Origin: Prochlorococcus sp. AG-347-J14
Lineage (GTDB): Bacteria; Cyanobacteriota; Cyanobacteriia; PCC-6307; Cyanobiaceae
Length of the DNA stretch: 64,000 nucleotides
Direction: 5' to 3'
NCBI GenBank assembly: GCA_003281505.1
Contig: QCBU01000002.1
Coordinates: 1 to 64,000 of the forward strand
Notes under the pieces: model-generated
Told to the model about the DNA's origin: nothing
Databases searched by the model: none
Seen by the model: only the letters and a program-made list of their open reading frames with translations
Shown here: piece after piece, positions 18,260-22,146 of the stretch
Numbering within the stretch: position 1 is the first letter of the stretch
Layout of the letters: every line of letters begins with the position of its first letter
Made by a program: the position numbers and the translations under genes

Positions 18260-18967
18260 TTATATCCAAGGGTCATCTTCTTTTTTTTCACTAAACGGTA
18301 TAGATGTTCTGTCATTATTATAAAAACTTTTTTGTTTAAAATCTAAGTTTTGGCTTATATCTTCATCTTCTTCAAGCCATTCCTCTAATCTATTAGAAGC
18401 AATATTTTTCATATCATCAAATCTATTAAAAATTTTTTTTCCTTTTTGCATAAATTCATTTTTAATACTTGATTTTATTAAAGATAAATCATCTAAAGAA
18501 TTACTTTCACAAAATACCAATCCCGGTTGTTGATCATTGATATTATCAATAGTTAATTTCCATCTACTAGAACCTGGAATCTTAGGATTAGATCTAGAAA
18601 CTAAGTAATATTTAATTTTCCCCGTTTTTATTTCAAATAAAAAATCTGCAATAACTCCTATCTTTGATCCATTTATATTTATAAGGTTAGCTTCTATTAA
18701 AGTTGGAAACCTATTTAAAGTTGCTAAATCCGAAATAGCTGGATCACCTTTAACATAAATTTCATTATCTATTATTTGAGAAATTTGATTTAATCGCCAA
18801 ACATTTCTTTTTAAATCAAAATTTGAAGGACGAGAGTACCATCCTAGAATACGGTGAACTGGAGGGTGCATCCAAACATTTTCTCCATGTCCATAATTAA
18901 GGATCATATTACCCTTAACGCTATAATTTAGTAATTCACTTAATAAAATTTCTTTAGGTAATTTCAA
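18260..18967 (-). CDS. PRC-barrel-like conserved protein
   Basis: Conserved neighbour of dnaN in this lineage. Residues about 5-75 (LLSELLNYSVKG and following) and about 90-135 (LIEANLININGSKIGVIADFLFEIKTGKIKYYLVSR) resemble two PRC-barrel beta folds, the second being the clearer. The C-terminal 60 residues are charged and probably disordered, ending in DDPWI. The start is TTG at 18967, one base after the dnaN stop; the next Met would be residue 21 and would break the first barrel. PRC barrels occur in RNA processing, photosystem and other proteins, so function is open. It is probably co-transcribed with dnaN and purL. Confidence 0.8.
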   Translation of the reverse strand: MKLPKEILLSELLNYSVKGNMILNYGHGENVWMHPPVHRILGWYSRPSNFDLKRNVWRLNQISQIIDNEIYVKGDPAISDLATLNRFPTLIEANLININGSKIGVIADFLFEIKTGKIKYYLVSRSNPKIPGSSRWKLTIDNINDQQPGLVFCESNSLDDLSLIKSSIKNEFMQKGKKIFNRFDDMKNIASNRLEEWLEEDEDISQNLDFKQKSFYNNDRTSIPFSEKKEDDPWI

Positions 18968-18968
18968 A

Positions 18969-20126
18969 TCAAGAACGAACCTGCACAGGCATAACTAAAT
19001 AAGTAAAAGAATTAAGATTATCTTCTGGTACAAAAACAGCTGGAGTAGTTGCAATATTACACTTTAAAAGTACATTTTCAGAAGCAATAACTTTTAAACC
19101 TTCTAACAGATATCTTACGTTAAATGCAATATCAAAATTTTCACCAGAATAAGAAACAGGTATTGATTCATTTGCATTTCCAATATCTTGAGCATCTGCG
19201 CTGATTAAAGCTAAATCCGTGTCATCTAATTTAATCTTTACGACACTACTTTGCTGATCAGCCAAAACAGCAATTCTTTCTAATGCATTAATTAATTTTT
19301 TTGTATTGAAATTTAAAATTTTAGAGAAAGAATCAGGAATTAATTGTGAATAATTAGGATAAGTACCTTCTAAAGTTCTTGTAGTAATTATTTGATTAGA
19401 AGATATAAATACTACTTGACCTTTGTCATAGAAAAGCTTAATTGAATTTTCTGAGCTTCTCAAAGATACTAGTTTTTCAATTTCTCTTAATGATCTTGTT
19501 GGGATAGTCACCGATAAATCATCAACATTTGAAGATAAGTTTTCTTTATTTTCAATATGTTCTTCATTACCAATTAAAGCAACAGCCAACCTATGGCCAT
19601 CTGTAGAAGCAGACTCTAGATAATTAGGTTTGAAGGTAAAATTGACACCTGTGAGTAGTTGCTTTGAATCATCATTACTACTAGCAAAAATGGTAGATTT
19701 TAAAGCCTTTAAAAAAGAACTAGGATCAATATTCAAAGAAGTACCGCTCTCAACAAATGGTAAATTAGGATATTCATCAGAGGGTATTCCTTTTAAATTA
19801 AAAGAACCTCTGTCACTTTTTATTAGGATATTATCTGAATTCTCGTCAACTACTAGAGAAACGGGAGTTTCATTAGGTAGTTTGTTTACTATCTCGGATA
19901 AAAGTTTTGAAGGTATAGTAATAGCTCCACTATTTTTAACAGTTCCATCAAAAGAAGTTTGAATTCCTAAATTTAAGTCAAATCCTGTGACACTAATTTT
20001 ATTAGTTCCTTCGTCAGCTGTTAAAAGTATGTTTGCAAGAATTGGATGCGTTGGCCTTGAAGCAACTGCCTTGCTTACTAGTTGTATAGAATTATTTAAT
20101 TCATTTTGATTACAAATAATTTCCAT
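18969..20126 (-). CDS. dnaN: DNA polymerase III beta sliding clamp
   Basis: Ring-shaped clamp that tethers the replicative polymerase to DNA. The length is 385 residues with three clamp folds (about 1-120, 130-255, 256-385). Recognisable segments include the N-terminal MEIICNQNELNNSIQLVSKAVASRPTHPILANIL, TDGHRLAVA at about 175-183, and the C-terminal FTYLVMPVQVRS, whose MPV(Q/R) end is typical of bacterial clamps and forms part of the protein-binding pocket. ATG at 20126. It transcribes away from the putative replication origin at 20127-20463, as expected for a gene beside oriC. dnaA itself is not in this window. Confidence 0.97.
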   Translation of the reverse strand: MEIICNQNELNNSIQLVSKAVASRPTHPILANILLTADEGTNKISVTGFDLNLGIQTSFDGTVKNSGAITIPSKLLSEIVNKLPNETPVSLVVDENSDNILIKSDRGSFNLKGIPSDEYPNLPFVESGTSLNIDPSSFLKALKSTIFASSNDDSKQLLTGVNFTFKPNYLESASTDGHRLAVALIGNEEHIENKENLSSNVDDLSVTIPTRSLREIEKLVSLRSSENSIKLFYDKGQVVFISSNQIITTRTLEGTYPNYSQLIPDSFSKILNFNTKKLINALERIAVLADQQSSVVKIKLDDTDLALISADAQDIGNANESIPVSYSGENFDIAFNVRYLLEGLKVIASENVLLKCNIATTPAVFVPEDNLNSFTYLVMPVQVRS

Positions 20127-20236
20127 CAGAATTTGGAACTTTTTACAAATACAATATACTTTTTTCGTAAATTAAATTCAATAAATTTATTTTTTACTTT
20201 TTTCTAATATAAAAATAAATAATAAAATAAAAACTT

Positions 20237-20248
20237 TAGTAGTAGTAG
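20237..20248 (+). other. Candidate DnaA-trio (TAG x4)
   Basis: Four consecutive TAG triplets stand four bases from a directly abutting pair of DnaA-box-like 9-mers. Read from the boxes towards dnaN on this strand, the repeat is 3'-GAT-GAT-GAT-GAT-5', the polarity known for DnaA-trios, which guide DnaA filaments onto single-stranded DNA. A/T-only sequence follows. The arrangement is seen; activity is inferred. Confidence 0.65.
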
Positions 20249-20252
20249 TTCT

Positions 20253-20270
20253 TGTTGAAACTGTGGAATT
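20253..20270 (-). promoter_or_regulatory. Tandem pair of DnaA-box-like 9-mers
   Basis: On the minus strand AATTCCACA and GTTTCAACA directly abut and point towards the TAG triplets and the A/T tract. Each matches TTTTCCACA at 7 of 9 positions. Two head-to-tail boxes beside a trio are what is needed to nucleate a DnaA filament. Confidence 0.6.
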
Positions 20271-20463
20271 CTTAAATTAAATAGCTTGTCTACCTAGTTT
20301 AGGGAAAAAAAAATATGTGTAAAATATTTTTTATTTGTTGAATAAATCTAAAATTTTCAAAAAAAGAAAAAAATATTTAACAAGTAGAATTTCTTATTAA
20401 ATATTTTTCAACAAATGAAGCTTGTTTTTAATTGATTTCCACAGACACTATTTTTAGTGGATA

Positions 20464-21567
20464 TCAATATCCTAAGATTTTAGTTATATTTTTTAATGAA
20501 GGTTCAATATTTTTTCTAAAAATAGCATCATTGTTTTTTATGGCGCAATCAGGATCTTTCAAACCATTTCCAGTCAGAACACAAACAATAGTCGATTCTT
20601 TTTGAATTCTATTTTTATTTTTAATTAATCCAGCAACTGATGCTGCACTGGCAGGTTCACAGAAAACCCCTTCTTTGGCGAGGATTTTATAAGCATCTAT
20701 TATTTCTTCATCTGTAACTGACTGAAAATCTCCTTTACTCTCTTTTCTTACTTTTTTTGCTTTTTCTCTATTTACAGGATTTCCAATTCTTATTGCAGTT
20801 GCAATTGTTTCTGGATCTTGAACTATTATATTTTTTACTAACGGCGCTGATCCTTCGGATTGAAACCCCATCATTATTGGTAATTTCAAATTTCTTTTTA
20901 TTTTTGAATATTCTTTAAATCCCATCCAATAAGCAGTTATATTTCCTGCATTGCCCATCGGAATACAAAGCCAATCAGGGGCATGACCTAAGTCATCAAC
21001 TATTTCAAAAGCCGCCGTTTTTTGTCCTTGTATTCGATATGGATTAACAGAGTTAACAAGTTCTATAGGATGTTCTGAGGATAAATCTCTAACAATTTCA
21101 AGAGCTTTATCAAAGTTTCCATTAATAGATATTATCTCTGCTCCATACATTAATGCTTGCGCAAGCTTTCCTTGTGCAACAAATCCTTCTGGTATTAAAA
21201 CATAAGGTTTTAATCCTCCTCTCGAAGCATATGCAGCAGCAGCAGCGGAGGTATTTCCAGTACTTGCACAAATAACTGCTTCACGGCCTTCTTCTTTTGC
21301 TTTGCTAATTGCCATAGTCATACCACGATCTTTAAAAGATCCTGTTGGATTAAGGCCATCATATTTTAAAAAAACTTTTGTTCCATTTCCAACTAAGTCG
21401 CTAATTGACTCGCTTAAAATTAGTGGTGTATTTCCTTCATTGAGGGAAATAATAGGAGTTTTCTTTGTAACTGGAAGATATTGTTTGTAAGCCTCTATAA
21501 GGCCTGGCCATCTTTTTTTTCTATAATTAAAACGCAGTTTATTTTTGATTTTATTTAATAACACCAT
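20464..21567 (-). CDS. thrC: Threonine synthase
   Basis: PLP enzyme that converts O-phosphohomoserine to threonine. The PLP lysine is K79 in [12 protein letters not shown] (73-84). The [16 protein letters not shown] segment (about 104-119) and the glycine-rich phosphate loop around [15 protein letters not shown] are also present. The length of 367 residues fits the short bacterial form. ATG at 21567; its 3' end abuts the putative origin. It lies six bases after the DUF1400 gene and is read towards the origin, so it would be transcribed against leading-strand fork movement. Confidence 0.96.
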
Positions 21568-21573
21568 GGTTGT

Positions 21574-22146
21574 TTAATTTGTTTTGATTTTTTCTAGAGG
21601 AGAATTGGTGAAAAAGGTTAATAATTCTGAAATAGATTCTACTTTATTCATAACTTTGCTCAAAGCGCTGACATCTAGAATTACAGTTTTGGTTGGATAT
21701 CCTTCAAAAAAATTTATTAGATTTATTTTGCCATTTCCTAAGTTAATTCCTTGAATTACGCTTGCTCTAAGAGCCAACATACCTGTTCTTTCATCATTTG
21801 CTCTAGTTGGGTGGATAATAGATGAAAGTCTTGTTAAAAAAACATTTCCTATTTCAGAATAAACTAATTTGCTTGCAATAGTAATAGGAATTTCAAAATC
21901 TTTATTTAAAACTTCTCTAATTTGTTTATCTGAAGATCCTGTTGCCTTCAAAATTTTTTTTAATTTTCTTGATGATTTACCTTCTTTAGCAAAAGTTTTT
22001 AAAGAATTTACCTTAATTGTTCTTGAAAAAATGCTATAAGTTATTTTAATTTCTTCAGCAGCATTAGCTTTTGGAGTATTAGAAAATAATGGAAAACTTG
22101 TTAAAAGAAAAACGATTTTAAATATTAAAAATTTTCTAAACTTCAT
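21574..22146 (-). CDS. Secreted DUF1400 (alpha/beta-hydrolase-associated) protein
   Basis: The length is 190 residues. Residues 1-29 form a signal peptide: basic MKFRKF, hydrophobic FLIFKIVFLLTSFPLF, then ANA as the likely cleavage site before AEEIKITY. The mature part resembles the DUF1400 domain, which in other cyanobacteria precedes an alpha/beta hydrolase domain: ITYSIFSRTIKVNSLKTFAKEG and LSSIIHPTRANDERTGMLALRASVI. No hydrolase domain with a nucleophile elbow follows here, so this is a stand-alone version. It starts directly after the ABC1 kinase stop (TAAATG) and ends six bases before thrC. Probable location is periplasm or lumen; activity unknown. Confidence 0.8.
   Translation of the reverse strand: MKFRKFLIFKIVFLLTSFPLFSNTPKANAAEEIKITYSIFSRTIKVNSLKTFAKEGKSSRKLKKILKATGSSDKQIREVLNKDFEIPITIASKLVYSEIGNVFLTRLSSIIHPTRANDERTGMLALRASVIQGINLGNGKINLINFFEGYPTKTVILDVSALSKVMNKVESISELLTFFTNSPLEKIKTN

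Follow-up and report, generated by a model that had tools for sequence, protein, structure and literature searches.

Whether the small chromosome of Prochlorococcus sp. AG-347-J14 (1.50 Mb, about 30% G+C) is still opened by DnaA, and at which sequence, is a question raised by the gap that separates dnaN from thrC in the window, the stretch of 64,000 nucleotides analysed here. The gene order is that given for Prochlorococcus in PMC2836286, where the origins of this genus were located between the beta-subunit gene and the threonine synthase gene. DnaA is dispensable in some cyanobacterial lineages, as the initial annotation had stated: this holds for Synechocystis 6803, PCC 7002 and Nostoc 7120, and the protein is absent in some Cyanobacterium and Geminocystis strains (PMC7198777). 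The gap is very probably the chromosomal origin, in which the pair of boxes, the 4-nt spacer and the (CTA)4 repeat would form a basal unwinding system (BUS) opened by DnaA. The finding is correct, and it is an expected one for its kind, the BUS being canonical and the origin position known. The gap and its surroundings comprise:

20127-20463, minus strand: dnaN-thrC gap, proposed oriC, 337 bp, positioned as in PMC2836286
18969-20126, minus strand: dnaN, DNA polymerase III beta subunit (NCBIfam TIGR00663, above cut-off)
20464-21567, minus strand: thrC, threonine synthase (NCBIfam TIGR00260, above cut-off)
20262-20270, minus strand: DnaA box 1 of the tandem pair, AATTCCACA, the commonest genus form (66/101)
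20253-20261, minus strand: DnaA box 2 of the tandem pair, GTTTCAACA, abutting box 1; genus consensus GTTYCCACA
20249-20252, minus strand: 4-nt spacer AGAA, constant in length and free in sequence across the genus
20237-20248, minus strand: DnaA-trios (CTA)4, CTACTACTACTA on the minus strand and 3'-GATGATGATGAT-5' on the plus strand; exact in 84/101 genus cores
20127-20236, no strand: A/T-rich tract, proposed unwinding region, 87% A/T, 110 nt up to the dnaN ATG at 20126
20153-20181, minus strand: promoter-like TTGAAT-17-TATATT inside the A/T tract, pointing to dnaN; similar in 85/104 genus regions
20336-20344, minus strand: distal box TATTCAACA, in the same direction as the tandem pair; conserved position
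20374-20382, plus strand: distal inverted box TATTTAACA, genus consensus TATTCAACA; conserved position
20405-20413, plus strand: distal inverted box TTTTCAACA; conserved position
20435-20443, plus strand: distal inverted box ATTTCCACA, one of the most conserved 9-mers in the gap (0.978)
20316-20324, minus strand: weak fifth box-like 9-mer TTTTACACA

A BUS has been described as one or two DnaA boxes after which three or more trios with a middle A begin no further than 16 nt away (PMC8287927), and the window holds tandem boxes, 4 nt and four 3'-GAT-5' triplets. The initial annotation had placed the tandem 9-mers, the four bases and the TAG-type repeat correctly, as is read directly from the letters; it had also described about 95 nt of nearly pure A/T running to dnaN and three further boxes towards thrC, and here the tract is present but longer, while the boxes exist but number four at conserved positions plus the weak fifth. 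Box 2 is degenerate, its form being a rare variant found in 2/101 genus cores. The tandem pair and the four positioned boxes make up a cluster of DnaA boxes, in which the distal members lie 74, 112, 143 and 173 nt from box 1, at distances that are near-constant in the genus, and the last three of them are inverted and spaced 30-31 bp. In 94 regions the distal boxes number 4.05 on average, compared with 0.52 after single-base shuffling. The placement of (CTA)4 beside the box pair is unlikely to be due to chance because only three copies of CTACTACTACTA occur in the 1.50-Mb genome (the reversed pattern has six); the chance that one of them falls no further than 16 nt from a given box pair is roughly 3e-5.

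The A/T tract seems to have two jobs, unwinding and the accommodation of the dnaN promoter. The element TTGAAT-17-TATATT is presumably this promoter, a call that rests on conservation because the promoter scan performed no better than shuffles, with four promoter-like sites at 20100-20500 versus 3.9 and hence no excess. As the tract carries a likely promoter, its A/T composition is not by itself evidence of melting. The same interval, 20100-20500, shows no terminator-like site, and no RNA family was detected when 18900-21700 was scanned against Rfam.

Conservation within the genus was assessed in regions 5' of dnaN. The gene was detected in 118 of 151 genus genomes, and 106 members provided a region (102 of the 118 and four more), of which two shortened by contig ends were removed to leave 104. 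The box, the 4-nt spacer and four triplets are retained in 103 of these, and the ungapped core (box, box, 4 nt, 12 nt) scores high in 101. G124 lacks one base between the boxes and retains box 2, the 4 nt and the trio; the region of G146 starts within box 1 and the rest of its core is retained; G080 is without the core and has an odd dnaN frame. Base changes in triplets 1 to 4 of the 101 cores number 0, 2, 4 and 9 at the first base, 0, 0, 3 and 0 at the middle base and 0 throughout at the third; the triplets closest to the boxes thus change least, and the constraint within triplets agrees with the published trio motif. Of the 15 first-base changes, 12 turn C into T and yield the 3'-AAT-5' form, which is tolerated according to that motif (PMC8287927, PMC10721633). 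In 94 aligned gaps the mean column conservation is 0.983 for the trio and 0.827 for the tract beyond. Among other members of the family, 62/63 keep the module with its 4-nt spacer. A lack of conservation in close relatives, which the initial annotation had named as refuting its reading, was not observed.

Support for the position of the origin comes from the complete genome of a genus member, G108, in which the record starts 167 nt 5' of dnaN and the GC skew switches sign at this gene. Among 20 samples of 20 kb, the skew is positive in 9/9 up to 0.69 Mb and negative in 6/6 from 1.17 Mb, with five mid-genome samples of mixed sign. The skew of the window itself, which stems from a draft genome, is only roughly consistent with an origin. 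Bi-linear coverage has been reported for wild Prochlorococcus, in a text whose available part names no locus (PMC9589681).

The genome encodes one DnaA above the NCBIfam cut-off, and its gene lies on contig C7 while the proposed origin is on C2, so the two are not adjacent here. The best match of this DnaA among solved structures is 8btg, which we take to be the B. subtilis BUS structure. Contacts to the trio or fork are made by Asn187, Ile190, Ile193, Arg202, Lys222, Glu223 and Glu228 (PMC10721633). In one alignment, read by eye, all seven residues are kept in 31/31 family DnaAs including that of this genome; however, 28 of another 29 DnaAs, many of them belonging to species in which the module is missing, also keep all seven (by eye), the L212 protein having Gln at 222. 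Because the contact residues are equally kept where the module is missing, they do not prove its use, and the DnaA sequence does not separate the two groups. The order of boxes, trio and unwinding tract that the initial annotation had proposed as oriC is nevertheless supported by genus conservation with fixed spacing, an intact DnaA with its contact residues, the G108 skew switch and the published location (PMC2836286).

Across the family the GC content of the gap rises from about 25% to 65% and the trios drift with it, for instance to CTACGACGACGG. A strict expression missed most GC-rich members and a looser score recovered them, including G177, G183, G257 and G266, with first triplets CTT, CTG, CGA and CGA; the figure of 57/57 for CTA as first triplet arises by construction, the search having forced CTA, and G203, with a very degenerate second box, was retained by reading. 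Over four triplets in 62 genomes the middle base changes from T to G 67 times, from T to C three times and from T to A twice, and the third base from A to G 65 times and otherwise three times. On the trio strand the prevailing middle change is A to C (67/72 changes). A larger pattern search gave 93 rows, from which four were dropped and 12 of the genus set aside; the remaining 77 rows, over three triplets, have 109 G, 6 A and 2 C at the middle base, and three of them that look like chance matches hold both C and two of the six A. The control was T at positions 2-4 of both boxes in 31 GC-rich genomes, which changes to C eight times, to A three times and to G twice. A Fisher test on the middle base (1e-25) is overstated, as the counts are not independent; a fairer count, obtained by parsimony on a single DnaN tree that covers 34 genomes and has no support values, gives nine T to G, no T to C, one G to A and two G to T. 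Contrary to this trend, the only three middle changes within the genus turn T into A twice and into C once, and family genus g27 carries T to A. The second box of GC-rich family members has C at position 7 in 16/31, a base described as typical of weak ATP-DnaA boxes at this position (PMC8235120).

With B. subtilis DnaA, a middle cytosine works about as well in vitro and is better than guanine or thymine in vivo, and the amino group at the middle base is contacted by Asn187 (PMC10721633). Since A to C prevails in nature and is the single exchange accepted by B. subtilis DnaA, natural variation follows the laboratory rule. The published BUS finder used (.A.){3,}; those who wrote it suspected that some trios deviate in having no middle adenine (PMC8287927), and the GC-rich trios of this family look like these. 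We give an even chance to a wider proposal, namely that trios follow an amine rule (3'-GCT/GCC-5', with A to C and hardly any A to G, read by the same Asn187 pocket, so that finders requiring a middle A under-call them) and that carrying or lacking the module, wherever in the genome, marks whether a cyanobacterial lineage still depends on DnaA.

The pattern TTTCCACA-N4-CTACNACNA is exact in 122/289 class genomes, while the reversed control matches 8/289 by our count; some of the 122 matches, such as those of G290 and G363, are plainly chance. Among 60 class regions adjoining dnaN a stricter module occurs in seven without mismatch and in two with one. In 23 genomes the module follows dnaA on the same strand at a distance of 246-515 nt, these near pairs having been picked by eye and not amounting to a rate, and in G429 and G485 an exact module lies hundreds of kb from both dnaN and dnaA. 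Beyond the class an exact module was found in 2/107 genomes, the copy in G284 being 162 nt 5' of dnaN. Elsewhere in the phylum the module is often near dnaA or dnaN, and it looks old, though its strict form is rare outside the class. Claims of absence rest on the exact search because chance matches are frequent in the one-mismatch search: outside the family it matched 170/238 genomes with the pattern and 66/238 with the reversed control, and in family f7 12/18 versus 13/18. The exact search in turn misses variants such as a 5-nt spacer (G299), GC-drifted trios and box 2 of the window itself.

In six families (f6, f7, f11, f12, f13, f14), chosen after inspection of the results, the exact whole-genome search found the module in 0/53 genomes, and several of those read at dnaN still carry TTTTCCACA boxes there. 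Eight families had lacked an exact match; f2 was left out on account of G376, where a module with one mismatch lies about 150 nt 5' of dnaN, and f20 was left out with it. Among the matches listed, 79 of the 80 named loci nearest to a Synechocystis-like DnaN, which are not a random sample and some of which have short 5' flanks (L334, L335, L356), lack the module at dnaN, the exception being Kastovskya adunca. These loci include Synechocystis salina, Microcystis, Crocosphaera, Nostoc, Anabaena and a Geminocystis. No DnaA reaches the curated cut-off in 6/289 class genomes (G312, G314, G316, G368, G377, G389), and none of the six has an exact module; one-mismatch matches in G312, G368 and G377 do not exceed the control. 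G312 and G472 (family f7, genus g51) are near-complete and without any dnaN match. G165 (L174) is the sole family member without the module (1/63) and the sole one without a DnaA match (1/61), and direct reading of its short dnaN gap reveals neither boxes nor trio. It is possibly a DnaA-independent picocyanobacterium, although the genome is 95% complete and dnaA could sit on a missing contig. Loss of the BUS in DnaA-independent lineages had been anticipated (PMC8287927), and the variation or loss of the module in relatives appears to fit the known loss of DnaA in some cyanobacteria; the families are not independent, however, and many genomes with DnaA also lack the exact module. During these searches the dnaN matches of G156, G186, G231 and G243 came in two separate pieces, as if bearing an insertion, and G221, G163 and G196 gave many weak DnaA-family matches in repeated ORFs of about 300 aa, which are probably IS21-type helper ATPases.

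These comparisons also bear on other readings of the gap. The CTA repeat might be a trinucleotide microsatellite that came to lie beside the boxes by chance, and CTA repeats do occur elsewhere, as the three exact genome copies attest; slippage should, however, alter the copy number, and 0/101 genus cores have another number in register, while the repeat is found 4 nt from a box across many families and outside the class. Constant repeat number and fixed spacing contradict this reading and leave it scarcely credible. A role of the repeat and boxes in transcriptional control of dnaN by DnaA or another factor, with replication starting elsewhere, would be in keeping with the conserved promoter-like element and with the ability of DnaA to regulate genes (PMC7198777), but a module that is also found 3' of dnaA, or far from both genes as in G429 and G485, does not follow dnaN. 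Together with the skew switch at dnaN in G108, this absence of dnaN linkage elsewhere led to rejection of a promoter-only role, which is very unlikely.

It could also be that the module is a relic, dnaA and oriC having been kept while initiation proceeds without them, since several cyanobacteria keep dnaA without needing it (PMC7198777) and the DnaA contact residues persist in relatives that lack the module. Yet a relic would not hold 12 bases at a mean conservation of 0.98 with fixed spacing, and the relatives of DnaA-independent species are mostly without the module; on these grounds the relic was rejected as extremely unlikely. The reading of the gap as an origin opened by DnaA is the one retained.

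The closest known counterpart is the BUS of B. subtilis oriC (DnaA-boxes 6/7), with which the module shares order, direction, tandem boxes, a short spacer, 3'-GAT-5' triplets, an A/T tract beyond and the DnaA contact residues (PMC8287927, PMC10721633). It differs in having four perfect triplets rather than six (PMC8235120), in its cyanobacterial box type and in the fact that dnaA does not adjoin the origin. Within the phylum, S. elongatus DnaA unwound its own box-plus-trio DNA in vitro, with box and trio both needed, so the description of cyanobacterial origins as poorly characterised in the initial annotation was a little strong (PMC8287927). The module of S. elongatus is the same by its description rather than by substrate letters, and its DnaA also worked with ADP (PMC8287927). 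The Prochlorococcus origins predicted from GC skew and gene order lie at the same place with DnaA boxes nearby; the available text of that study gives the position only and no trio (PMC2836286). In the open-licence literature no paper was found on the anatomy of the Prochlorococcus trio or on natural C-trios.

By analogy with B. subtilis and S. elongatus, DnaA would bind the distal boxes and the abutting tandem pair and form a filament directed towards dnaN. Its AAA+ domains may then take hold of G and A in every 3'-GAT-5' triplet of the plus strand at 20237-20248, and this capture would open the A/T tract at 20127-20236 for helicase loading. We infer that DnaA-driven melting is kept in Prochlorococcus.

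The kind of module and the position of the origin were already known, and it is the comparative series that goes further. One of the smallest free-living phototroph genomes appears to keep the ancestral box-plus-trio opener almost unchanged, and its family, with about 25-65% GC in the origin gap, is a natural mutagenesis series of the trio, whereby a recognition rule from one Bacillus structure becomes directly testable. The module pattern could locate origins where gene order fails, as in G429 and G485, and the module is a candidate sequence marker for which cyanobacteria still initiate through DnaA.
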